26,570 nt of DNA from positions 1 through 26,570 of the IMG/VR virus record IMGVR_UViG_3300025301_000094. The stretch is one strand, 5' to 3'. The notes below the pieces were generated by a model. It saw nothing but the letters and a program-made list of their open reading frames with translations. It was not told the origin of the DNA and did not search any database. The DNA comes from a virus. The position numbers were made by a program, and so were the translations under genes. Of this stretch, positions 76 to 26,487 are shown piece by piece (position 1 is the first letter of the stretch; each line of letters starts with the position of its first letter).

Positions 76-474
76 ATGGAAAACTTTATAGCAGTTGTTA
101 AATCTACAGATGGCAAGTTGGACAAGTACCAAGACTTCGCAGTCGAGGCTGATGCTGTCAGTCACGTTGCAACCTATGGCGGCTTCGTTGCCCCTGATCC
201 CGGTGGCTCAACAAGTTATTGGGTTGTAGATGCAGATGCCGAGACAGTCACTAACAACCAAGATCAAGCTGACGCTGACGCCCTCGCGAATAGTTGGGCT
301 GCTCTTCGTGCAGAACGTGATGCGTTGTTAGCCTCATCTGATTGGACGCAAGCTTCTGACTCACCGTTAACAGATGAAGTCAAAGCTACTTGGGCAACGT
401 ATCGTCAAGAACTGAGGGACTTCCCAGAAAGTGCAGACCCCGCTGACCCAACGTGGCCGACGCCGCCTGAATAA
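76..474 (+). CDS. Tail fibre assembly chaperone-like protein, 132 aa (Phage_tail_APC-type C-terminus)
   Basis: Residues about 77-132 carry the pattern of phage tail assembly chaperones: LRAERDALL, then SDWTQ, SPLTD, WATYRQELRD and a Pro-rich end with PTWPTPPE. Such proteins sit directly after fibre genes and are thought to help fibres fold or attach. The first 70 residues are an unrelated acidic N-terminal domain that I do not recognise. The start is ATG 76, preceded by AAGGAAG at 64-70; an in-frame ATG at 22 has no ribosome-binding site and would overlap the end of the preceding frame. The C-terminal half is closely similar to that of the protein at 2403-2696, so the two are paralogues. The role is inferred from motif and position. 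Confidence 0.75.
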   Translation: MENFIAVVKSTDGKLDKYQDFAVEADAVSHVATYGGFVAPDPGGSTSYWVVDADAETVTNNQDQADADALANSWAALRAERDALLASSDWTQASDSPLTDEVKATWATYRQELRDFPESADPADPTWPTPPE

Positions 475-485
475 GGAGAAGATGA

Positions 486-1436
486 ATGTCAACGCTGAAG
501 GCTGACGCTGTAACTAGCGCACAAGACAATACGGCTTTAACGCTGTCTGGTACAGGAACAGGTGGTGTTAAAGTTAATGACTTCTTTGTCCAGACTAAAG
601 GTGCTGACATTGCTTCCGGCACCACACTCACTCTGGGCAAGGACGGTAATCAGTTCGATGTCACTGGAACGACGACCATAACGTCCATAGCCACACAGGG
701 TATAGGATCATACGTCACCCTGCATTTTGATGGAGTACTAACGTTCACACACCACAGTACTAATCTGATATTGCCAGGAGCGGCCAACATCACGACTGCC
801 GCTGGTGATATCGCGGTCATGTATGAATACGCTTCTGCTGATTGGCGGTGCGTTAGTTACACTAAGGCCAGCGGAGCGGCAGTTGTTGCGGCTGCTGGTG
901 CCGGAGCTTGGGAGTTGGTTGCTAGAACAGCAATTACTGGTGATGTAGGCAGCGTTGAGTTTAATACGGGCTACACTGAACACGCCGTTCAAATGTTCGT
1001 TCTTGAGTGCATTGACAGTACGGATGATACAACAAACCGCGTACTTGAATTGCAGTTTTCTGACGATGCTGGTTCGAGTTTTAAAACGTCTGGTTATCTC
1101 TCCTCCATGTTTCAACATTACAGTTCCGGTAGTACCAATCACGCAACCGCAACGTCATGGATTCAACTTTCTGACGGGACAAATACTAGTGACGAAACCG
1201 AAGGGCTTCACGGCATTGTGTATTGCTCCAACATGAACAACGCCTCCCAAAAAGCATATGCTTGGCACCAGTGTGTTTGGACAGCGGATGCTTCCAACCC
1301 TCTAAGGACAGCGACAGGGGGCGGAATATATAATACGGCGGCAGCTATAGATGGCGTTCGCTTTCAATTTAGCGGTGGCAATATCCAAGGGAATGTTGAT
1401 GCCTTCATTACACAATATAGGCAGGTGTTATCGTGA
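486..1436 (+). CDS. Tail fibre / receptor-binding-type structural protein, 316 aa
   Basis: The protein begins MSTLKADAV and continues with a Thr/Gly-rich beta segment (LTLSGTGTGGVKV), the N-terminal style of many marine podovirus fibre genes. The same opening pattern recurs in the fibre at 1688-2410. After a Gly/Ala-rich linker at about residues 128-141 comes a distal domain rich in Ser, Thr, Gly and aromatic residues (about 142-316), which would be the likely receptor-contacting part. There is no signal peptide or membrane helix. The start is fixed by AAGGAG at 473-478, eight bases before the ATG. The stop TGA overlaps the GTG start of the next gene. No enzymatic motif was seen. The assignment rests on composition, the shared N-terminus and the adjacent chaperone genes. 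Confidence 0.65.
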   Translation: MSTLKADAVTSAQDNTALTLSGTGTGGVKVNDFFVQTKGADIASGTTLTLGKDGNQFDVTGTTTITSIATQGIGSYVTLHFDGVLTFTHHSTNLILPGAANITTAAGDIAVMYEYASADWRCVSYTKASGAAVVAAAGAGAWELVARTAITGDVGSVEFNTGYTEHAVQMFVLECIDSTDDTTNRVLELQFSDDAGSSFKTSGYLSSMFQHYSSGSTNHATATSWIQLSDGTNTSDETEGLHGIVYCSNMNNASQKAYAWHQCVWTADASNPLRTATGGGIYNTAAAIDGVRFQFSGGNIQGNVDAFITQYRQVLS

Positions 1437-4183: not shown

Positions 4184-6418
4184 ATGGTTGGTGAGATCGA
4201 CTCAACGAAGGTATTCAACACATTTGTTGCAGGACTCATCACCGAAGCGGGTCCGCTTACCTTCCCTGAGAACGCGAGTAAAGACGAACTCAACTGTGTC
4301 CTGAGTAGAAAGGGCAACAGGCGTAGGCGCTTGGGTGTTGACTATGAAAATAGTGGAGCGCTCTCTGCTGTTACTCTAACTGATGCTGCAGCAGCTGCAC
4401 AAGGGCTCTTCACCGATGTTTGGACTTCTGTAGCGGGCAGTGGTACGAGGAACTTCCTTGTTCTTCAGATTGATACTACGCTGCACTTTTATGATCTCTC
4501 CGTTTCCCCGCTGAGTTCTGGTAAAAAAGGATTTACACAATCTATTAGCGGGTTTGCTGCTAGTGGTGCTACTGATGTAGGGCTTGAACCAATTACGATG
4601 GTGTCAGGCAGGGGGCTGCTCTTCTGTGCATCTAGTAAGCTAGAGCCGTTCTCGATTGAGTACTCTCCTAGTGGTGACTCCATCACTGCCACGCAGATTA
4701 GCTTAGAAATTAGAGATTTCGATGGATTAACTGAGAGTCCTGTTATCACCAATGATAACGAGCCCGCTACTCTCTCGACTACCCACGATTATAATCTGCA
4801 GAATCAAGGTTGGAACTCTCCCGGCGCTGGTGAAGCAGATCCTACAGCTACTTACTTTTCGAGTAAAGCTGTCTATCCCCCTAACTCTAAACAATGGTGG
4901 GCAGGGAAAGATTCTTCTGAAGTATTCGATCCAAATTTATTGACTAAGTTTGATACAGGCAATACTCTGGCTCCTCGTGGTCATTATCTACTCAACCCCT
5001 TTTACAAAGATAGGACAACTGCATCAGGGGTCTCTGGCATTACAGTTGAATCTGAAACTAAGAGACCAGAAGTACTGGCCTTCTTTGCTGGTCGTGTCTG
5101 GTATATGGGTGTAGATTCCTCAAAGATCAACGGACATATCTTCTTTAGTCAAGTTCTATTAACTGCAAATCACGCAGGGCGCTGTTATCAAGAAGCAGAT
5201 CCAACATCCGAGGATGTGGCTGAGCTAATAGATTCAGATGGTGGTGTTGTGGTTATCCCTGAAATTGGAAGGGTTAGAGGAGCTATCGTCAAAGATCGCT
5301 TCTTAATTATATTTGCTAGTAACGGTGTCTGGTCTATTTCAGGTGGCGGTACGGATGGATTCAAAGCTACTGACTTCCAAGTACAGGAAGTAACTTCTAC
5401 TGGTGTTACTGGTAAGGAGAGCATTGTTGTTACTGAAGCGTTTCCGATGTGGTGGTCAGAGCAAGGCATCTATACTCTTCTTGTAGATCAAGTCAGCGGA
5501 CAACTCAGTGCTCAATCAATGACGCAGAATACTATCGAGACATTTTACCAAGATGATATTCCTGCTATGTCTAAGATTTATGCAAGGGGGCAATTTGATG
5601 ATGCATCTAAGAAGATTTACTGGCTCTATAGTACGGTAGCCCCTGCCAATGATGCAGATAGATGGCGATTCAATGCTATTCTTGTCTTTGATACTTCAAT
5701 AGGTGCATTCACTCCTTGGCAGATTAGTAACTTAACTAATAATAGTCCCTATCTATTTAGTGTCTTTAACCTACAAGCTATTCAAACTACGGATCGTACA
5801 GAAAACGTTATAGATAGTAGTGCTAATACCATCGTTACGGATCAAGGTGCTGGTACAGAGAACTCAGTAGTTACGGATGTGCAGACTATTAGTGGTAACA
5901 CTACATTTCTCAAGTTTGTTGCTATTGTGCCTAATAGTGGAGCCGCTACTAATACATGGGTCTTCTGTGAGTTCAATAATGGTGACTTCCTAGACTGGGA
6001 AACCAACGATAGTACAGGGATTACTTATGATAGCTACTGGGAGATGGGTTACGAACTTTTTGGTTCTCTGACTAAGAAGCAAGTACCCTATGTACAGCTG
6101 TTCTTTAACAAGACAGAGACGGGAGCGGCTGGTGGTGCGTTGACTGCTCCATCTAGTCTCTTTATGCAGAGTAAATGGGACTGGACTAGTTCGGGTAATA
6201 CAGGTCGGTGGTCTGAGTTGAAACAGGTATACCGTTTGAAGCGTGAATTTGATACAGGATTGATAACAGATGAACGTCCAGGGGAAGATGTCATTGTCTC
6301 GGAAGAGAAAATAAGAGGACACGGTAAAGCGTTCCAATTGCGTTTCGAAAGCGAAGACGGCAAGGATTTCGATGTTGCTGGCTGGCAGACCTTTGTGGAT
6401 CAAACGAGTAATGTCTAA
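4184..6418 (+). CDS. Tail tubular protein B / nozzle (T7 gp12-like), 744 aa
   Basis: The N-terminus (FNTFVAGLITEAGPLTFPENA, then ELNCVLSRKGNRRRRLGVDYE) is the hallmark of podovirus gp12-like nozzle proteins. There the 'G-L-x-TEA-PL-P' segment is followed by an Arg-rich strand. The rest is beta-rich, with repeated aromatic and Gly patterns such as FFAGRVWYMGV, FLIIFASNGVWSISGG, MWWSEQGIYTL and KIYWLYST, as in a beta-propeller nozzle. The length (744) is close to T7 gp12 (794). It follows its neighbour's TAA immediately, with AAAGGA inside the upstream gene. The protein forms the distal tail tube through which DNA leaves. Confidence 0.85.
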   Translation: MVGEIDSTKVFNTFVAGLITEAGPLTFPENASKDELNCVLSRKGNRRRRLGVDYENSGALSAVTLTDAAAAAQGLFTDVWTSVAGSGTRNFLVLQIDTTLHFYDLSVSPLSSGKKGFTQSISGFAASGATDVGLEPITMVSGRGLLFCASSKLEPFSIEYSPSGDSITATQISLEIRDFDGLTESPVITNDNEPATLSTTHDYNLQNQGWNSPGAGEADPTATYFSSKAVYPPNSKQWWAGKDSSEVFDPNLLTKFDTGNTLAPRGHYLLNPFYKDRTTASGVSGITVESETKRPEVLAFFAGRVWYMGVDSSKINGHIFFSQVLLTANHAGRCYQEADPTSEDVAELIDSDGGVVVIPEIGRVRGAIVKDRFLIIFASNGVWSISGGGTDGFKATDFQVQEVTSTGVTGKESIVVTEAFPMWWSEQGIYTLLVDQVSGQLSAQSMTQNTIETFYQDDIPAMSKIYARGQFDDASKKIYWLYSTVAPANDADRWRFNAILVFDTSIGAFTPWQISNLTNNSPYLFSVFNLQAIQTTDRTENVIDSSANTIVTDQGAGTENSVVTDVQTISGNTTFLKFVAIVPNSGAATNTWVFCEFNNGDFLDWETNDSTGITYDSYWEMGYELFGSLTKKQVPYVQLFFNKTETGAAGGALTAPSSLFMQSKWDWTSSGNTGRWSELKQVYRLKREFDTGLITDERPGEDVIVSEEKIRGHGKAFQLRFESEDGKDFDVAGWQTFVDQTSNV

Positions 6419-6806
6419 TCTAGAAATGACAAAAACAGGAAAGTCATATATAGAGGAAAATAAAGAGCATATTCTTGCAATGATGTTCAATACAGTAAAG
6501 GATAGAATTTTACTAGCTGAAAACGATGCCATCAAATTTGAATGTGAAACAGATATGCCAGGACAACTTTGTTTTCACTATTCAATTAAACGCTGGGCAC
6601 CGTCTGCATTTAAGATTATTCTACACGATTGGGAAATTGTAAAGAATGAATTAAAGAAGATTGGAGTTCCCTGCATTTCTGCTAGAGCGAAAATAGATGA
6701 TACGAAGAATCTTAAGTTTTTTGAAATGATGAAGTTTATTCCATTTGGAACTTGGAGTGAGGACGGGGAAACCGTCAATTTAATAGAGTATAGGTTGGAG
6801 TTATAA
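6411..6806 (+). CDS. T7 gp13-like internal virion / GNAT-fold protein, 131 aa
   Basis: The size (131 aa, against 138 for T7 gp13) and position (directly after the gp12-like gene, before a gp14-like gene) match T7 gene 13, whose Pfam family belongs to the acetyltransferase-like clan. The C-terminal run DDTKNLKFFEMMKFIPFGTW followed by EDGETVNLIEYRLEL has the GNAT-like 'N...FFxxxGF...G' shape. The usual acetyl-CoA loop (Q/RxxGxG/A) is not visible, so catalysis is doubtful. The start chosen is ATG 6411, overlapping the previous stop; ATG 6426 is an alternative. The gene is visibly more AT-rich, with more Lys and Ile, than its neighbours, which hints at separate acquisition. Confidence 0.6.
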   Translation: MSNLEMTKTGKSYIEENKEHILAMMFNTVKDRILLAENDAIKFECETDMPGQLCFHYSIKRWAPSAFKIILHDWEIVKNELKKIGVPCISARAKIDDTKNLKFFEMMKFIPFGTWSEDGETVNLIEYRLEL

Positions 6807-17086: not shown

Positions 17087-17300
17087 GATAAACCTTCTTC
17101 CTAAAACATTAGGTTACGTTGGTAACGTATTCGGTGTCGGTTCCGATGCTGCCAAGAAGAACCCTAAAGCTTCGAACACCCTTGCTGGCCTATCAATGGC
17201 CGTACTCGGCTACTGGGGTATCGACCAGTCTGATATAGCTGCTGTTGGTAGCATCTTCCATAAGATTGGTAACTTTCTAGGCTCTAGTTGCGGCATCTAA
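17085..17300 (+). CDS. Small hydrophobic protein, 71 aa (holin candidate or minor virion protein)
   Basis: The start is well supported by AAGGAG at 17071-17076, eight bases before ATG 17085. The product is Gly/Ala-rich, with a moderately hydrophobic segment at about 31-46 (NTLAGLSMAVLGYWGI) and a second amphipathic stretch at about 51-68 (AAVGSIFHKIGNFLG). One weak membrane helix and short length would suit a holin or a pore-forming minor protein, but the hydrophobicity is low and there is no charged C-terminal tail. The C-terminal codons overlap or abut the next gene (17288), so the two are probably co-translated. I do not recognise a family. Confidence 0.6.
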   Translation: MINLLPKTLGYVGNVFGVGSDAAKKNPKASNTLAGLSMAVLGYWGIDQSDIAAVGSIFHKIGNFLGSSCGI

Positions 17301-17773
17301 CCTTGGCTAAGCAAAACTTCAATCCCCCTAAGTGGCACGTTGGTCTATCGGATGGCTGTTCAGCCCCTTGGGGGTTACGCTGGCTCTTTAATAGCAAGCT
17401 ACTAAAGTATTGCCATAGGCACGATGAACGCTATCATTACGGTGGTACTTGGTCAGACAAATTATACGCTGATGACGAGTTTTATTGGAACATCTATCAT
17501 AGTGGTTGGTGGGGCCGTAGACTGGCTGGTGTAATCTACTGGAACATTCGTACGTACACCTATAACTTTCCGGTAGGCCATCCTAATCGTAGTTGGCGAT
17601 CTTTAACCAAAGGAAAGGCTTTTAACTTTCTAGGGCCGGGACTACCCAAAAATGGGCCTCTACGTTACGCACTGGTAGGCGATAAGACACCCCTCGGCAG
17701 GGGTACCACCCGAGAGCACAGAGAAGCGCTTGTGGGGGCTTTAAAACGGCTCACAGGACAGAAGAAGCCGTAA
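17288..17773 (+). CDS. His-Asp protein resembling phospholipase A2, 161 aa
   Basis: The central region has C42-x2-H45-D46, an aromatic/Gly-Gly loop (ERYHYGGTW) and K-x2-A-D-D (A61, D62, D63). It is preceded by D22-G-C-S-A-P27. This 'GCS.P ... C..HD..Y..GG....K..AD' order resembles the catalytic helix of phospholipase A2 (CxxHD with a later AD), and also the HD...AD pattern of some small phage proteins such as DUF1353. C24 and C42 could pair. The middle, WWGRRLAGVIYWNIRTYTY (about 74-92), is aromatic and could sit at a membrane. Start: TTG 17288 has a weak AGG before it; TTG 17303, just after the upstream stop, is the alternative. No ATG precedes the motif. Lipase activity is an inference. Confidence 0.65.
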   Translation: MRHLTLAKQNFNPPKWHVGLSDGCSAPWGLRWLFNSKLLKYCHRHDERYHYGGTWSDKLYADDEFYWNIYHSGWWGRRLAGVIYWNIRTYTYNFPVGHPNRSWRSLTKGKAFNFLGPGLPKNGPLRYALVGDKTPLGRGTTREHREALVGALKRLTGQKKP

Positions 17774-17997: not shown

Positions 17998-18383
17998 CAG
18001 ACAAGATGCCCCCACCTCGATTTTCTCTTTTCTTCCTCAATTTTAACCATCCCTACCCGTAGTCTTTCAAGATAGACAGAGGCATCGAGGAGTTCTTCGA
18101 TGGTGTGGTCAATCCAGCCCACTATGGAGATGTCGTCACGCTCCATAGACACACCATACTTCTTCATTCCTTCTTCGCTACGTTCAGCTATCCTATCTAC
18201 TACTCGAACAACGATAGGATCTTCGATAGTCCATTCTGTAGCATGATAGTCAGGCGCTTCTTCCTGCTCGACTAACCCCGGTACAAGAGAGTGGTTCCCA
18301 TCATCCTCGATGGTGTTGAGTCTGTCGAACTCCTCTTGTGTCATGGCAGGGTTACCTAGATCATCGTACTTTATGTTTGGCAT
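17997..18383 (-). CDS. MazG-like helical protein, possible NTP pyrophosphohydrolase relative, 128 aa
   Basis: The second half (about 57-110) reads VVRVVDRIAERSEEGMKKYG ... IDHTIEELLDASVYLERL. This matches phage proteins related to the all-alpha NTP pyrophosphatases (MazG and relatives), with E96-E97-x2-D100 as a possible metal-binding set. The first EExxE motif of a complete MazG active site is not evident, so activity is uncertain. The N-terminal 50 residues are acidic and probably flexible. AGGAG lies about seven bases upstream. The ATG overlaps the reductase stop (TAATG), so it is co-translated with ribonucleotide reductase, a fitting neighbour for nucleotide-pool housekeeping. Confidence 0.55.
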   Translation of the reverse strand: MPNIKYDDLGNPAMTQEEFDRLNTIEDDGNHSLVPGLVEQEEAPDYHATEWTIEDPIVVRVVDRIAERSEEGMKKYGVSMERDDISIVGWIDHTIEELLDASVYLERLRVGMVKIEEEKRKSRWGHLV

Positions 18384-20287
18384 TATACATCTCCTATGTC
18401 TACCAGTTCACACACATTGCCATCACAAGCTAGTGTCTGCGAGGCGGCTGTGTTATCTTCCTTCTCGAACTCTGTTAAACCTGACCAGTCTATCGTATCA
18501 GGTGATATCTTGACTAGCTCGGTGTAATCTCGTCCGTTACACTCTTGATACGGCGCTTGAGCGTAGACGTGATCACTATAGGGCAAGAAGGCAAGCCCAC
18601 TACATAGATCAAAGTTCTCCCACATCCATGCTCCGACAGCCATCCACTCGTCATCTTTGACAGAGACCGTAACGCTTGGCTTGTGTTCGCACCACTCTTC
18701 GGCGTACTGTTTCCACAACTCGAGGTGATCAAGCGCAGATAACTCTGATCGTAGTTTAGCCCCCTTAGGTGCAGCAATAGGAAATGAGAATACTCCGGTA
18801 TTACCACTGGTATCCGATACGGCATCTTCAAAGGGGATACCCGCTTGTCTAAGGAAGGACGTGAGAGGATCTTTCTTATCTGCTCGAACCGTACGAGTAT
18901 AGAATCTAGAGTGTCTAGGATGGATTCCACTAGCTGAGTCTACCAGCTGCGAGACGGTACCACTTGGTTTGACACAGGTGATAGCTGTGCTCGGTTGTAT
19001 CTCCCACCGTTTAGCATATTGTTTGTTAGTTGCATTAGCTACCTCTCTCATCTCTCGTAACCATCGTTCTGCCTGATTAGATACCGCGCCTAAGATAGAA
19101 TGGTCTAGAATACCAGTGAGAGAGACACCAAGTAAGCGCTCCTCTTCTGTGTTGTCCTTCCAGATCTTACGGATATACTTAAAGTCAGTTAACGTAGCCT
19201 GATAGGTACCAAGAATGGTAGCTAGTCGTACCTTTCTTTTTAGGTCTGCCAGTGTATCATTACTGCGCACAATTACTTCAGTCAGATTACATACCTGGTG
19301 TGGACGTAGTATGATCTCACTACACGGGTTGGTACCCCACTCGTGGTCAGGGTCACGCTTACCATACTTCTCCACCTGTGCACGAGCAGCTAAACGGCTG
19401 AACATACCACGCTCTCCTGATCTGCTCTTCATTAGGGAGAGCCACTCTTCCATAAAGGAAGGAGTATCAGGCTTGGTAGTATAGACCACGCTGTTGTTGG
19501 CGAAGCTACGGTGTGGGTGTTGATCGAACCACTGTCCTGACTTACATAGGCGTAGCTGGTTGTCACCTAGGTTGGAGAGCGAGATCATCGCTGACCTACG
19601 TACCCCACCTACTACCACCGCTTGAGCAACCATACACATGATGTCGTGACACTCTAGGCTGGTTAGCTGTCGTCCTCCTGCATTGATACATGTCTTGGTA
19701 ACAAAGCGGAGTAGTGCATCAAGCGGCTCAGGTCCACTTGCTCGACCACCAAAGGTCTTCAGTCTTGCCCCAGCTGGTCTGATTTTGCTGAGATCCCATC
19801 GTGGTATGACAGCCTTGGCGAAGATTGAGTAGAGTATTTGCTTGAGCCCCTCTGCCCATCCCATCTTTGAATCTGCCACTATAATAGGTCTATCTCCGTT
19901 GATCTGGAGAGAATGAGGTACGGGGGGTAGGTTGCTTATGTACTGTCGTTCCACTGAGTAGCCGATACCTGAACCACACATCAGAATATAGAGAGCTTCA
20001 TCGAAAGCACGAAGGTCATCTATTTTAGTGTAGGAGCAGTTAAAGCCAGCCATATTATCACGGGTCAAAGCAGGGCCAGCAGTCATGAGGCACCGCATAG
20101 AGGGCATGACGCCCATACTCTCTATACCATAACTAAGATCTGTGTAGTCAGAAGCAGATACATTGACATGGTCTTTCATGAACTTCATGTATCTATCTAC
20201 TGTCTCTTTCCACGTCTCCCTACGCTGCTCGTCTTCGAGCCACCTAGCATACCGGGATTGGTGGATGAAGGTCTGATAATTATCCAT
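18383..20287 (-). CDS. nrdJ: Adenosylcobalamin-dependent (class II, monomeric) ribonucleoside-triphosphate reductase, 634 aa
   Basis: The enzyme reduces ribonucleoside triphosphates to dNTPs using a radical made from coenzyme B12. NPCSEI holds the radical Cys322 and Glu324, and Cys333 (in QVCNLTEV) lies 11 residues on, the same spacing as C408/C419 in the Lactobacillus leichmannii enzyme. Cys84 in FNCSY is the partner redox Cys. The C-terminal pair Cys621/Cys626 keeps the five-residue step of C731/C736. At 634 aa it is shorter than the 739-aa Lactobacillus enzyme, partly at the N-terminus. I start at ATG 20287; a TTG three bases earlier is possible. It overlaps the upstream 61-aa gene by eight bases. 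No oxygen or partner subunit is needed, but cobalamin is, so phage growth should depend on a host that makes or takes up B12. Confidence 0.95.
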   Translation of the reverse strand: MDNYQTFIHQSRYARWLEDEQRRETWKETVDRYMKFMKDHVNVSASDYTDLSYGIESMGVMPSMRCLMTAGPALTRDNMAGFNCSYTKIDDLRAFDEALYILMCGSGIGYSVERQYISNLPPVPHSLQINGDRPIIVADSKMGWAEGLKQILYSIFAKAVIPRWDLSKIRPAGARLKTFGGRASGPEPLDALLRFVTKTCINAGGRQLTSLECHDIMCMVAQAVVVGGVRRSAMISLSNLGDNQLRLCKSGQWFDQHPHRSFANNSVVYTTKPDTPSFMEEWLSLMKSRSGERGMFSRLAARAQVEKYGKRDPDHEWGTNPCSEIILRPHQVCNLTEVIVRSNDTLADLKRKVRLATILGTYQATLTDFKYIRKIWKDNTEEERLLGVSLTGILDHSILGAVSNQAERWLREMREVANATNKQYAKRWEIQPSTAITCVKPSGTVSQLVDSASGIHPRHSRFYTRTVRADKKDPLTSFLRQAGIPFEDAVSDTSGNTGVFSFPIAAPKGAKLRSELSALDHLELWKQYAEEWCEHKPSVTVSVKDDEWMAVGAWMWENFDLCSGLAFLPYSDHVYAQAPYQECNGRDYTELVKISPDTIDWSGLTEFEKEDNTAASQTLACDGNVCELVDIGDV

Positions 20288-20465
20288 CAAGATCGTAATC
20301 CAGTTCTGTTAAGACATCTTCGAAGAGTTCTATATGTTTACTTCGGTCAAACATTTGATCGAAGATATCTTCAGGTGTTAGCTCCATGATATCACAGAGC
20401 TCTTCTACGTCATACTTGGTACAGATACGACGGCGTAACTCTTCGAATGAAATGTTCGTGTTCAT
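20280..20465 (-). CDS. Small acidic hypothetical protein, 61 aa
   Basis: The product is helical and acidic: ISFEELRRRICTKYDVEELC, then DIMELTPEDIFDQMFDRSKH, ending LTELDYDLDG. The 'D-V-E-E-L-C-D-I-M-E-L-T-P-E-D-I' part looks like a small helix-turn-helix-like or adaptor fold, and similar short proteins occur in other podovirus early regions. No catalytic residues are evident. ATG 20465 overlaps the stop of the metallophosphoesterase gene (ATGA); a longer reading frame upstream is only an out-of-frame overlap with that gene. Its stop lies inside the start of the reductase gene. I cannot assign a function. Confidence 0.6.
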   Translation of the reverse strand: MNTNISFEELRRRICTKYDVEELCDIMELTPEDIFDQMFDRSKHIELFEDVLTELDYDLDG

Positions 20466-21196
20466 CCGTAAGCTTCTTTCAATGCTTTCAGTGATACCCA
20501 GCTGTGATCGTACTTCCCATCTTCTACATTGTTGCATAGTACTACTCCACGCCAGTAATTTTCATTAGCAGGACCAGCAAACTCGTGGAATTGATCGAAG
20601 TAACAACCCACAACAAGAGTATGCTTACCCCTCTCTTCATAGAAGTCTCGGAAGTGAGTGTGTCCAACGGTGTAAGACTTATGCTCCTGCTTAACAATAG
20701 CACGAGCGAGATTAACCGACGAAAGAGGGGTAGAGAGAATAGGAGAAGGACATACGTGGTTATACGTAATTCCATCTATCGGCTCTCCTGCAAATAGATA
20801 CTCGTTTATATTATCATTAAAGTCCTTCTCACATAGATCATCGATACCAAACGTGCCACTCATGACACCAGCATAGCTCTCTGCTGTACGTATCCTGTTC
20901 TCGTGGTTGCCTCGGCGTTTTTCTCGCCTTGGTAGCTTCTTCTTGTTCTTTTTGTAGGGCCACCATACTTTTTCCATTGCATCTATATAAGCATTTACAT
21001 CATTTGTATACCTTCTGCTGTCATATCCTTGCTTACCCTTGTCGTAAGTGCACAGTGAAGGCATATCAGCTGAGTCCCCTATATCAATAACTACGTCAGG
21101 CCGCATGGCATAGATGTACTTACCAAGCCATTCAAACCTATCGTTATTATGTTCGGGATTAGCGTGACTGTCAGGGATAATTAAATGAGTAGTCAT
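20462..21196 (-). CDS. Calcineurin-like metallophosphoesterase, 244 aa
   Basis: The motifs of the two-metal phosphoesterase fold are in order: D9-S-H11 (IPDSHANPE), G40-D41 (VIDIGDSAD), G96-N97-H98-E99 (RRGNHENR) and G178-H179-T-H181 (TVGHTHF). These bind the metal pair and the phosphate. The substrate cannot be read from the sequence. Phage relatives are annotated as phosphatases or nucleases, and a DNA 3'-end or nucleotide substrate would suit its neighbours, endonuclease I and ribonucleotide reductase. A basic stretch (YKKNKKKLPRREKRR, about 81-95) just before the GNHE motif could touch nucleic acid. AGAGGA precedes the ATG by eight bases, and the ATG overlaps the endonuclease stop (ATGA). 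Confidence 0.85.
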   Translation of the reverse strand: MTTHLIIPDSHANPEHNNDRFEWLGKYIYAMRPDVVIDIGDSADMPSLCTYDKGKQGYDSRRYTNDVNAYIDAMEKVWWPYKKNKKKLPRREKRRGNHENRIRTAESYAGVMSGTFGIDDLCEKDFNDNINEYLFAGEPIDGITYNHVCPSPILSTPLSSVNLARAIVKQEHKSYTVGHTHFRDFYEERGKHTLVVGCYFDQFHEFAGPANENYWRGVVLCNNVEDGKYDHSWVSLKALKEAYG

Positions 21197-21600
21197 TTAT
21201 GATCCTCTTGTATCCAGCTAAGAGGTATCAACCTATCCGCAAAGAGGAAGTCCTTATTCATACACCATCTCGCGTAAGATGTAGGGCTGCCTCGATACAG
21301 TTTGTTCTGGCTGTTACCAAAGACGAAACGTATGTCGAGATTAGGATGTTGTTCCTTGACGAACATATGTTTCTTTCGATCAGCGCTGGAGAATAGGCCC
21401 TTTGCCTCAATGATGATTCCGTTGGGCAATACGAAATCAGGCGTGTAGGTGTGACATGTCACGGGCTTAGTGTAAGAGATCTTACATGTCTCGTATTTAA
21501 CGTAGACACCGTTAGCCTTCAAGTCCTCAGCGATCTTGTATTCAAGACCAGACTTGTACCTACCGTGACGTCTAGCTTTTTTATTATGTTTCGGCTTCAC
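21193..21600 (-). CDS. Endonuclease I, T7 gp3-like Holliday-junction resolvase, 135 aa
   Basis: With the GTG start at 21600 the catalytic residues fall at E20 (SGLE), D55 (YTPDF), E65 and K67 (IEAKG), identical numbering to T7 endonuclease I. This supports GTG over the longer ATG 21630 (145 aa). AAGAAGGA lies eight bases upstream of the GTG. Further conserved pieces are DRKKHMFVKEQHP, LDIRFVFGNS, KLYRGSPTSYARWC and FADRLIPLSWI. The enzyme cuts branched DNA and breaks host DNA to feed phage synthesis, acting as a dimer in the cytoplasm. The N-terminal 15 residues are basic. The gene overlaps the coiled-coil gene upstream by 17 bases and the phosphoesterase downstream by ATGA. Confidence 0.92.
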   Translation of the reverse strand: MKPKHNKKARRHGRYKSGLEYKIAEDLKANGVYVKYETCKISYTKPVTCHTYTPDFVLPNGIIIEAKGLFSSADRKKHMFVKEQHPNLDIRFVFGNSQNKLYRGSPTSYARWCMNKDFLFADRLIPLSWIQEDHK

Positions 21601-21889
21601 CAGACTTGTCCTTCTTGTATTTTGGACCATATACTTCTTGGTTATAAGCAAGATCTTGATGAAGATATGATATTTGTTCCAGTTTAGCTTGTAACTTATC
21701 TTCAAGTATGCCTCGCTCGTTTTGCAAAGCAATCAACTCTTTCTCAAGCAGATCAATATAGTCCCATATCTGTGACATAGCAGCAGTGAGCCAGCTGCCG
21801 TGAACAGGAATAGAATGAGAAAGATCACTATTACGTAGCGTGAACTGCCACTCTTCTCGAATGTCTGCTACTTCCTTCTTGTTACTCAT
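21584..21889 (-). CDS. Coiled-coil hypothetical protein, 101 aa
   Basis: Residues about 42-80 form a heptad-like helix (IDLLEKELIALQNERGILED, then KLQAKLEQISYLHQDL). The segment around 12-40 (REEWQFTLRNSDLSHSIP...SWLTAAMSQIWDY) is mixed, and the C-terminus is charged. No known domain is recognised; it may form dimers or bridge partners. AAGGAG lies about eight bases before ATG 21889. The start overlaps the end of the acyl carrier protein gene by eight bases, and its stop is inside the endonuclease I gene, so it belongs to the coupled leftward operon. Confidence 0.6.
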   Translation of the reverse strand: MSNKKEVADIREEWQFTLRNSDLSHSIPVHGSWLTAAMSQIWDYIDLLEKELIALQNERGILEDKLQAKLEQISYLHQDLAYNQEVYGPKYKKDKSGEAET

Positions 21890-22136
21890 TGCTGTTTCTC
21901 CTTGTTAGCTTTGTATTAATGATATCGATTACATCTTGAACAGTGGTGAAACATAGAGCCTCTTTATCATAGATAAGCATATTAAATTCATCTTCTAAGT
22001 CCATGATAAACTCTTGTTCATCAAGGCTATCAAGTCCAAGATCGTCCTTGAACTTTGACTTGACTGTAATGTTAGGCATATTATCTACGTAAAGACCATT
22101 GAGTACCTTCTTGATTCTATCCTTTGTATCGCTCAA
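21882..22136 (-). CDS. acpP: Acyl carrier protein, 84 aa
   Basis: The motif DDLGLDSLDEQEFIMDLEDE (31-50) contains Ser37 in DSL, the site where 4'-phosphopantetheine would be attached. The following acidic helix II is the usual partner-binding face, and FTTVQDVIDIINTKL is the normal helix IV. Length and charge match bacterial ACP (about 78 aa). The start is TTG 22136, chosen because AAAGGAG lies seven bases upstream and no usable ATG exists before the conserved core. It overlaps the nuclease gene by 20 bases. Its role in a phage is unclear: it may divert or modify host lipid synthesis, or bind a host ACP partner. No acyl synthase or transferase is encoded in the window. Confidence 0.9.
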   Translation of the reverse strand: MSDTKDRIKKVLNGLYVDNMPNITVKSKFKDDLGLDSLDEQEFIMDLEDEFNMLIYDKEALCFTTVQDVIDIINTKLTRRNSNE

Positions 22137-22986
22137 CTCTAGGCTCCTTTACAACAGTAGTAAGAAAACGAGGACCAGTGCTATAAAGATACGTGTATAG
22201 ACCTTGTCCGTCATTGGAATCCTTCCAGCAGTCCTCCTTGTAAGGACAGTACGAGCACTGCACACATAGTTTCATGTTACCACTCTTACCATCTTCGATA
22301 GCTTCATAGCAGCGCTCGGGTGGAGTGTCTAATTCTACAACCTCCTTCATGTGGCGTATCCTAGCTGCGGCATCAATCATCTCCATATCAGCCACAGGAA
22401 GTACCGCAAGTTTGCCCAAGCTCTTCTCCATAACCAGAAAGGCACCTTGATCTTTGCCTCTGGCTTGGGCGTACGCAGAGATTTGAGCGATATAACCGAA
22501 GGGGTCATCATTATAGAGTTCTCCGTTCTTGAACTTCTCGAACCCATACCGTGATGCTGACTTCACATCAACGGGAACACCATTGATCTCACAATCCATA
22601 TGGCCCTTGACATTTTCAATCTCAACCTCATGCTGTTCATGAGTCACAATATGCCCCGCTTCTTTAACGAGGAAGAGAAGCATAGCTTCGATGATGTGAC
22701 CATAAAGGAACTTGATATACGTATCCGGACGTAGTTGCTCCTTACCTACCACTTCCGGGTCCTGATGCTCGTACCACAATTGTTTATCAGGCTTGCCGAT
22801 GTTGGACATACGGAGGTAGGCTTCTCGTGATTTACTCGCTGTTTTTAACGAGGTCTTCACTGCATTTCGGATAGCCTCACACATATCATCGAGGTTGTCA
22901 TCGGTATAATGTTCTGTTTCTTCCCAGCTACCATCAAACAGCCCTTCAATATCTTTGACGAGAGTATCTAGTGTCTTACCTGTCAT
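22117..22986 (-). CDS. Cas4/RecB-like PD-(D/E)XK exonuclease with cysteine cluster, 289 aa
   Basis: The nuclease core shows H97 (YGHIIEAM), D131 in GHMDCEING, D140-V-K142 (GVPVDVKSAS) and Q168-I-S-A-Y, the order of the RecB/Cas4 branch. C241, C244, C247 and C253 (CVQCSYCPYKEDC) form a C-x2-C-x2-C-x5-C cluster that could bind an iron-sulphur cluster or zinc; C36 is a possible extra ligand as in Cas4. In podoviruses of this kind such a gene stands in for the T7 gp6 exonuclease, making single-stranded ends for recombination and degrading host DNA. The ATG overlaps the preceding 53-aa gene (ATGA) and has only a weak ribosome-binding site, so coupling is likely. Confidence 0.85.
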   Translation of the reverse strand: MTGKTLDTLVKDIEGLFDGSWEETEHYTDDNLDDMCEAIRNAVKTSLKTASKSREAYLRMSNIGKPDKQLWYEHQDPEVVGKEQLRPDTYIKFLYGHIIEAMLLFLVKEAGHIVTHEQHEVEIENVKGHMDCEINGVPVDVKSASRYGFEKFKNGELYNDDPFGYIAQISAYAQARGKDQGAFLVMEKSLGKLAVLPVADMEMIDAAARIRHMKEVVELDTPPERCYEAIEDGKSGNMKLCVQCSYCPYKEDCWKDSNDGQGLYTYLYSTGPRFLTTVVKEPRVERYKG

Positions 22987-24660: not shown

Positions 24661-26487
24661 TTAATGTGTCTCCTGCCAGTTGTTACCTATCCTGTACTCA
24701 CCATCCATAGGACAGTTAAGCTTAAAGAACTTGCCAGCGTCACGGATAGATTGACACTGAATTTCACCCAATTGATCAGCGTGTTCACGTAACACTTCTG
24801 TCTGGAACTCATCGTGAACTACAGCCACTTGCTTAAAGTCTAGCTCTGCTTGCCTAGCTTTACGATGCCAGTCCAACATAGCCCACTTCATTACGCAGCT
24901 TTCTCCTCCTTGGAGGTAGACGGACATACCGAAGTGCTCTGACTTGATCCAGATCCATCTTCCATCGAACCCCACAAGTCCTCCATTTCTAGCTGCCCCG
25001 GCAATTTGATGTAGTTTGAATTCGGCGAGGGCTGGTGTGTTGTTGAGGAATCTATCTGTTGTTGCTTTTCCATCTTTAGGTGTGCCTCCAATAATTCTTC
25101 CAATTCTTTCTGAACCCGCCCCCATGAGCCAAGCATATATGAACGTCTTCGCAAGATCTCTCGTCTTAAGCGATGCCGCCTTCTGATTCTTTGTATGGAT
25201 GTCACCATCTACTACCTCCTTTATATAGTCGGGATCATTCATATAATGAGCAAGTAATCGTAGCTGGATACCCACTGCATCAGTACCAAGTAAACAATAT
25301 GTGTCAGGGTTATCCACAGTCCAACAGCTACGACACTCAGGACCGTAAGGACTATCACGTCCTGGTATGTTAGCCATGTTCGGCGCTTGGTGTGACATGC
25401 GATGAGTGCCGCTGCCAATGCTAAAGACACCACCATGCACACGATTATCAGAAGTAAGACCATCGAACCATCCTTCTATCTCATTACTACGGCTGCTGCA
25501 CATAGCATACTCACCTAGATAACGTAATGCTTGAGGCGCATCATCGTGTATAGTCTCTAAATTCTCATCGCATAGCTGCCATGTACGGGCTGACTTCTCT
25601 TCGAACTCCTCAGCTGTCAGCTTCTTCTGTCTTCGTAAGTCAAGTAGCTTACGATAGTATTTAGTACGTATCTTTGGGTCCCAATGTCCTTCAAGACGCT
25701 CTAGTTTCTGCCTCGGTGAATTAAGGTTGAACTCCTGCCACTTAATCCTAGTCATTGGACCAGCCGCAGTGCTCCAATTTTTTCCTAGGAATTTTAGGCC
25801 CACGGTTGAGAGATCGCCGTTCTTTTTATAACGTGGCTTCACCATACTTACTGGCTTGGCAATAGGCTTCAACTCTTCTAAGATACTACGTTCTAATTCC
25901 TGCGCACGGGATTTAACTAGGGTGAAAAGCTTGTGCGCCTTAGGTACATCGAGTGCAAACCCGTGTTCCTTCTGGTTCTCAAGGATATGCTGAACAGCAT
26001 GTTCAATCTGTTCCGATAACCTTGACCCCCGCTTTCCACCCTCTAATTTTAGGGCAACCGCTACCCGATAGGTTAACTCGACATCGTTGTCGCAGTAACC
26101 TAACATCTCCTTACTGTACTCATCCCAATCATCGTGGTCACCCTTAGAGAAGTCGAGTATCCTTCCCCAATTAGCCAAACTATGACCACCTTCACGGTTA
26201 GCGTTTTGTAAACGAGATATAAGTAGTGTGTCCCATACTCGGGATGGTTTTATTTTTACACCTAGTATCTTACGTAGTACGCGTAGATCATAAGCTATGA
26301 AGTTATGACCTATCCATTCATCTACTCCTTCGGCAAACTCTTCGAACTGGTCCAATGTGTCAGGTGTAAAGTAAGTCTTGTCACCTGTATCCCATTCCTT
26401 ACACACTATACACCATACAGTGTCTACCTTTGGAAGCAAGCCATTAGTCTCTACGTCACAGACTACTCTTCTTCTTTCACTCGTCAT
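24661..26487 (-). CDS. DNA polymerase, family A (T7 gp5-like) with 3'-5' exonuclease, 608 aa
   Basis: Exonuclease motifs: D11-V-E13 (CDVETNGL), H61-N62...D67 (GHNFIAYDL) and Y131...D135 (YCDNDVEL). Polymerase motifs: A, D403 in GTDAVGIQLRLLAHY; B, R443, K447 and Y451 in RDLAKTFIYAWLMGAG; C, H558-D559-E560 in VVHDEFQTEV. All catalytic carboxylates are present, so it should be active and proofreading. Two usually conserved residues differ: Gln408 where T7 has Glu480, and Met455 where T7 has Tyr530. At 608 aa it is about 96 shorter than T7 gp5, so a T7-style thioredoxin-binding insert is probably missing. It copies the phage genome with the helicase encoded next door. The start is ATG 26487, behind GGAGAAGG. 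Confidence 0.95.
   Translation of the reverse strand: MTSERRRVVCDVETNGLLPKVDTVWCIVCKEWDTGDKTYFTPDTLDQFEEFAEGVDEWIGHNFIAYDLRVLRKILGVKIKPSRVWDTLLISRLQNANREGGHSLANWGRILDFSKGDHDDWDEYSKEMLGYCDNDVELTYRVAVALKLEGGKRGSRLSEQIEHAVQHILENQKEHGFALDVPKAHKLFTLVKSRAQELERSILEELKPIAKPVSMVKPRYKKNGDLSTVGLKFLGKNWSTAAGPMTRIKWQEFNLNSPRQKLERLEGHWDPKIRTKYYRKLLDLRRQKKLTAEEFEEKSARTWQLCDENLETIHDDAPQALRYLGEYAMCSSRSNEIEGWFDGLTSDNRVHGGVFSIGSGTHRMSHQAPNMANIPGRDSPYGPECRSCWTVDNPDTYCLLGTDAVGIQLRLLAHYMNDPDYIKEVVDGDIHTKNQKAASLKTRDLAKTFIYAWLMGAGSERIGRIIGGTPKDGKATTDRFLNNTPALAEFKLHQIAGAARNGGLVGFDGRWIWIKSEHFGMSVYLQGGESCVMKWAMLDWHRKARQAELDFKQVAVVHDEFQTEVLREHADQLGEIQCQSIRDAGKFFKLNCPMDGEYRIGNNWQETH

Follow-up and report, generated by a model that had tools for sequence, protein, structure and literature searches.

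The window analysed here, a 26.57 kb IMG/VR record taken at its full length, almost certainly holds a genuine acyl carrier protein (ACP) gene at positions 22136–21882 of the minus strand. The virus is a SIO1-like, Zobellviridae-related podovirus, and the gene lies in its early operon. We propose that it encodes a working AcpP-type ACP, that it belongs to the accessory early genes and occupies a recombination slot, and that its product would join the acyl-ACP pool of the host. Taken as a whole, this explanation has in our estimate an even chance of being right. The features on which the argument rests are as follows.

24661..26487, minus strand: family A DNA polymerase (PolA), the basis for grouping the virus with SIO1 and ICBM1
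22117..22986, minus strand: Cas4-like exonuclease (phrog_1990, 5e-41), left flank of the proposed slot
22144..22149, minus strand: AAGGAG ribosome-binding site, 7 bases before the TTG and within the Cas4 reading frame
21882..22136, minus strand: ACP, 84 amino acids, TTG start (phrog_5934, PF00550, NCBIfam, AcpP structures, AlphaFold/Foldseek)
22026..22028, minus strand: codon of Ser37, predicted 4'-phosphopantetheine attachment site in an LGLDSLD motif
21584..21889, minus strand: g101, second cassette gene, lying between ACP and endonuclease I; a small predicted coiled-coil-like protein
21193..21585, minus strand: endonuclease I of the T7 gp3 type (PF05367, 2.6e-56), right flank of the proposed slot
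20462..21196, minus strand: metallophosphoesterase (phrog_221, 4.6e-26), same operon as ACP
18383..20290, minus strand: class II ribonucleotide reductase (phrog_367, 1e-169), same operon as ACP

Identity of the Carrier Protein

The initial annotation described a complete ACP with a DSL serine, and profile matches, predicted fold and the position of Ser37 all agree with this description. The reading frame extends over 84 codons from a TTG at 22136–22134 to a stop codon that ends at 21882, and overlaps Cas4 upstream by 20 bases and g101 downstream by 8 bases. Residues 2–79 align with positions 13–90 of the 93-position PHROG profile 5934 ("acyl carrier protein") at 8.4e-17, a full-length match, and a Pfam profile search placed the protein above the gathering score of PF00550 (23.6 against 20.8 bits). 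Several NCBIfam acyl carrier protein models matched at about 1e-17, yet under their curated cut-offs. Since the acyl_carrier equivalog model TIGR00517 was not reached (61.7 bits against a cut-off of 70.45), we do not file the protein as an AcpP equivalog. The solved AcpP structures from E. coli and B. subtilis match in sequence at about 1e-11. An AlphaFold model (mean pLDDT 82, from an input alignment of only 4 sequences) predicts an AcpP-like bundle of four helices (residues 3–14, 37–51, 57–60 and 66–82) in which helix II opens with Ser37, and the best Foldseek matches to this model are AcpP-type ACPs with TM scores of about 0.8. The agreement is far beyond chance. Ser37 is invariant in A1 and A3, and a DS[LMF] motif occurs in 38 of the 38 viral ACPs of the collected set.

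The acidic residues of helix II around the serine form the face that AcpP shows to its partner enzymes. In our alignment, residues D35, D38, E41, E47, E48 and D56 of E. coli AcpP correspond to D36, D39, E42, E48, D49 and D57 of the phage protein, and three partner-facing positions are changed (V40 to Q41, E57 to K58, and E60 to L61). Because these three residues are replaced while the acidic face of helix II is kept, the phage protein may serve only some of the partners of AcpP, or act as a competitor.

The gene had been read as starting with TTG behind a very strong ribosome-binding site. The start is borne out: initiation at the first in-frame ATG, Met20, would delete helix I, and both TTG and AAGGAG are kept in a close relative (L072) and in a much diverged third lineage (L073). 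The ribosome-binding site is likewise present and conserved, but it is partly Cas4 coding sequence: AAGGAG encodes part of a VKEP motif near the end of Cas4. This motif is widely kept in Cas4 of relatives that have no ACP, so part of the conservation of AAGGAG reflects a coding constraint.

The Virus and Its Early Operon

The closest relatives of the DNA polymerase and of the tail protein are those of SIO1, ICBM1 and roseobacter or alphaproteobacterial podoviruses (41% and 33–36%), and the ribonucleotide reductase is closest to that of Roseobacter phage CRP-403 (58%). Zobellviridae is the class given for SIO1 and ICBM1. The nearest cultured relatives infect Alphaproteobacteria. Beside the tail gene, an open reading frame at 6411–6806 (plus strand) occupies the place where SIO1-like phages have an annotated GNAT acetyltransferase; it matched neither Pfam nor PHROG.

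Companion contigs extend the view beyond the window. A 20.7 kb contig (G071) overlaps positions 1–824 at 99.5% and reads as terminase, portal-like, capsid-like, RIIA, RIIB and most of a primase-helicase gene. A second contig (G074), 95.4% identical to the window and about 99% to G071, bridges the other side. G071 is apparently from the same species, although it may derive from another strain. Since G071 and G074 join the window, almost all genes of the species can be seen. The window and contigs G070, G071, G073 and G074 derive from different samples; strains may differ, and a short gap may have gone unseen.

An SSB gene, like those for ribonucleotide reductase and PolA, is among the neighbours of ACP. 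The reported location of ACP between a Cas4-like nuclease and endonuclease I is confirmed by phrog_1990 and PF05367, with the addition that g101, which the initial annotation did not mention, also intervenes. g101 matched no PHROG and no Pfam family above cut-off, and occurs as well in a sister phage (L008) that has no ACP. The listed open reading frame of endonuclease I runs to 21732 and is longer than the conserved protein.

A Probable Exchange Slot between Two Conserved Nucleases

L001/L002 (the virus of the window itself), L006/L072 and L073 share the order Cas4–ACP–g101–endonuclease I. The ACP of L072/L006 is 84% identical to that of the window over 77 residues. The ACP of L073 is only 33% identical, and has the same slot, the same start architecture and a GLDSLD motif. 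The relatives searched beyond this small clade lack the gene. In the sister L008/G045 (polymerase 82%), the slot is filled by g101 and two further small open reading frames. In the sister L009 (polymerase 80%), as in SIO1, ICBM1 and phiM6, Cas4 abuts endonuclease I. When 30 related records, many of which are fragmentary, were searched with PF00550, only the window and L073 gave a match; the 28 without one include SIO1, ICBM1 and phiM6. The context beside the nuclease is therefore kept within the small ACP clade but absent from two sisters and from the farther relatives searched, and we reject ACP as a conserved part of a Cas4/endonuclease I module. At 45 loci, other viral ACPs have neither Cas4 nor endonuclease I alongside. 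A tie to DNA processing is thus not supported for a clade-limited cassette whose counterparts in unrelated phages lack both neighbours. Since most relatives do without the gene, its benefit must be conditional.

In a comparison of the window with L073, the 3' part of Cas4 (84–98% DNA identity) and the 5' part of endonuclease I (85–92%) are strongly conserved, ACP and g101 between them are at 50–60%, and genes further out are at roughly 58–75%. Synonymous divergence agrees with this pattern (dS 0.5 for Cas4, 0.9 to saturated for other genes). The simplest reading is an exchange slot, in which conserved flanks would recombine around a variable middle cassette. The Cas4 gene (22117–22986) is itself a mosaic: in L072 its N-terminal part matches that of L008, and in L073 its 3' part matches that of the window, which suggests that the locus recombines often. 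If the neighbours of ACP are the borders of a slot, they say little about what ACP does.

Patchy occurrence could also mean that ACP is a neutral passenger, recently captured in a permissive slot and expressed without benefit. Such cargo would be expected to be absent from some relatives, as the gene is from L008, L009, SIO1, ICBM1 and phiM6, in which Cas4 borders directly on endonuclease I or on other small open reading frames. Two observations argue against it and make it improbable. Between the window and L072, ACP has a dN/dS of 0.21, estimated from about 23 substitutions in one pair of lineages (Fisher p = 0.0004 on rounded counts), with the serine and helix II intact; as judged from these substitutions, ACP and its modifiable serine are under purifying selection in this clade. 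In addition, the slot of L073 is occupied by another ACP that has diverged strongly. That two very different ACPs share slot, serine and start suggests that ACP function itself has been retained. A tree of 116 ACPs is not decisive, given such short sequences; it joins window and L072 (0.999) and puts L073 elsewhere with weak support. What we claim from these sequences is strong divergence; because the tree is too weak, we claim neither independent origins nor separate acquisition of the two ACPs. No recent cellular donor was visible in a genome scan, in which the returned matches covered the protein partly or fully at 29–58% identity and came from distant phyla.

Modification and Lipid Enzymes

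The window and contigs G070, G071, G073 and G074 yielded no phosphopantetheinyl transferase (PF01648) match, even at E ≤ 1. The window contains no ketosynthase (PF00109), and G071 contains no second PF00550 protein. ACP does not lie beside fabD, fabG or fabF, its neighbours being Cas4 and endonuclease I. Ser37 is very probably phosphopantetheinylated, and because neither window nor companion contigs revealed a transferase, this modification must come from the host. With no ketosynthase or transferase beside the gene, the protein must also act on or with host partners, and to this extent the earlier proposal of host partners is upheld.

The remark that no lipid enzyme was in sight is correct for ketosynthase and transferase but overlooks a phospholipase A2-like gene on the late side of the window (17288–17773, plus strand). 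Its product contains the motif DGCS...CHRHD and matches phospholipase A2 structure 8k1w at E = 0.005; it found no match in Pfam, PHROG or the annotated phage collection. A homologue with DGCSG...CCDEHD is present in the ACP-less sister L008 (15947–16270, minus strand).

The sister L008/G045 also contributes an AcpS-like protein of 115 amino acids, encoded upstream of RIIA and next to RIIA/RIIB (163–537, plus strand, of L008, corresponding to G045:C1:30056–30400, minus strand). It scores just over the cut-off of PF01648 (25.6 against 25 bits), matches the NCBIfam holo-ACP synthase model at 1e-12 but under cut-off, and has 3qmn as best solved relative (1.5e-8). The GVD and WAIKEA motifs are kept. 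Because some 30 residues between them are missing relative to 3qmn, its activity is uncertain. G045 has this gene and no detectable PF00550 ACP, and the AcpS-like gene was not found in the clade of the window. Its presence in a sister means that ACP chemistry recurs in this phage group.

These genes bear on the idea that ACP belongs to a lipid or secondary-metabolite route which the phage carries together with a phosphopantetheinyl transferase, on the model of cyanophages P-HM1 and P-HM2. The shortened AcpS-like protein with its GVD and WAIKEA motifs and the phospholipase A2-like gene could be taken as parts of such a route. However, the searches for transferase and ketosynthase described above were negative, G045 lacks an ACP of its own, and the phospholipase-like gene also occurs where there is no ACP. 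We consider this route highly improbable. It is also quite unlikely that, in this phage genus, ACP and the miniature AcpS-like transferase of the sister are exchanged within the early region as alternative tools for taking over the carrier-protein system of the host, possibly with a non-lipid partner as target.

Among 53 records, mostly of ACP-bearing viruses, PF01648 matched in five: G045, P-HM1 and three related contigs. In related viral contigs (L220, L221 and L222, from G031, G036 and G043), an AcpS-like gene and an ACP gene are about 7 kb apart amid long open reading frames, one of which contains a CNMECEFCYN motif and resembles a radical-SAM enzyme. These contigs possibly represent a virus-borne biosynthetic cluster.

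Proposed Function

The working explanation can be laid out as a series of steps. ACP would be translated from the TTG that overlaps the end of Cas4, probably coupled to Cas4 translation. Ser37 would then be phosphopantetheinylated by the host holo-ACP synthase, as no transferase was detected for the phage. The holo-protein would enter the host acyl-ACP pool, and acyl chains or acyl-ACP-dependent enzymes may thereby be shifted to the advantage of the phage, for example in phospholipid supply or in the feedback on fatty acid synthesis. ACP would have no role in DNA processing, its neighbours being merely the conserved borders of the slot. Hijack of the host lipid supply, one of the roles suggested at the outset, is the reading we favour, if tentatively. 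Family, predicted fold and nearest structures are all those of fatty-acid-type AcpP, and point to an acyl role. That ACP acts mainly through acyl metabolism rather than through a non-lipid partner is, by our judgment, close to an even call.

The main rival is a regulatory one, in which holo- or apo-ACP binds a host regulator or machine (Rsh/SpoT, a cysteine desulfurase, an SMC-type condensin or a defence protein) and so favours infection. ACPs are known from complexes outside fatty acid synthesis, and the Foldseek matches include MukBEF (9gm6) and a cysteine desulfurase (5usr). The early-operon location and the overlap with Cas4 would suit a takeover gene, and no fatty acid enzyme was found near ACP. 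On the other hand, no sequence feature singles out a partner, and the serine motif in all 38 viral ACPs favours a carrier role. A control search detected MukB in E. coli and found none in Caulobacter, and the closest cultured relatives of the virus infect Alphaproteobacteria. Overall, we regard a non-lipid partner as possible but rather unlikely. Of the specific partners put forward by the initial annotation, MukB and chromosome condensation find no support on these grounds, and the present analysis lends none to SpoT and stress signalling.

Alternatively, ACP could be a decoy or sink: by drawing phosphopantetheine, malonyl or acyl groups away from host AcpP, it would slow the lipid synthesis of the host or deprive one of its acyl-ACP-dependent responses of supply. 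The same modification chemistry without an own transferase, the strong translation signal, and altered partner-facing residues that could make the protein a poor substrate for later steps would all be consistent with this role. Sequence cannot separate such a decoy from participation in the acyl-ACP pool, the explanation that we favour; we rate the decoy as unlikely.

Relation to Known Phage ACPs

The nearest described counterpart of the window ACP is PHROG 5934, a phage ACP family classed under moron, auxiliary metabolic gene and host takeover. It matches over its full length (8e-17 for the window, 4e-16 for L073), and we see no difference of substance. Single phage ACPs taken from GenBank records are 30–51% identical to the window ACP. 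With bacterial AcpP of type II fatty acid synthesis, the protein shares fold, DSL serine, acidic helix II and length. It differs in being about 41% identical to E. coli AcpP, under the equivalog cut-offs and outside a fab cluster, and in the changes V40Q, E57K and E60L.

Solo ACPs are known from several phages, including cyanophages P-HM1 and P-HM2 (PMC3037559), Erythrobacter phage R6L (PMC5463345), Alteromonas podovirus R22Y (PMC11705849) and Vibrio phage R16F (PMC10152775). The published Prochlorococcus phages P-HM1 and P-HM2 resemble the window virus in being lytic and in carrying an ACP distant from lipid genes, but there ACP is paired with ACPS (PMC3037559): P-HM1 has its own phosphopantetheinyl transferase, whereas none was found for the window virus. 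The ACPs of R6L, R22Y and R16F are predictions from marine phages, as are those of roseobacter prophages (PMC8224337), and in the available text of these reports the authors call their function unclear or speculative. They belong to other phage groups and contexts, and three of the roseobacter prophages have a fabG-acpP-fabF arrangement that is absent from the window. ACPs are also annotated in Prochlorococcus, Cronobacter, Pectobacterium, Olleya and Brevundimonas phages, and Vibrio phage ICP1 has an unannotated one. A literature search for ACP together with HMO-2011 returned nothing. A match labelled as phage from Acinetobacter MD-2021a (CAKLQH020000007.1) was rejected; its rpmF-fabD-fabG-acpP region is bacterial chromosome, probably mislabelled host DNA.

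The window ACP therefore belongs to an already described sort of phage gene, to which this analysis adds the evidence for an exchange slot and the AcpS-like gene of a sister. Solo ACPs recur across many unrelated phages, and this small clade offers a natural comparison, with one ACP, a different ACP, an AcpS-like gene where no ACP was seen, or neither. Because closely related phages differ in this way in their ACP and AcpS-like content, what a phage gains from an ACP becomes testable.
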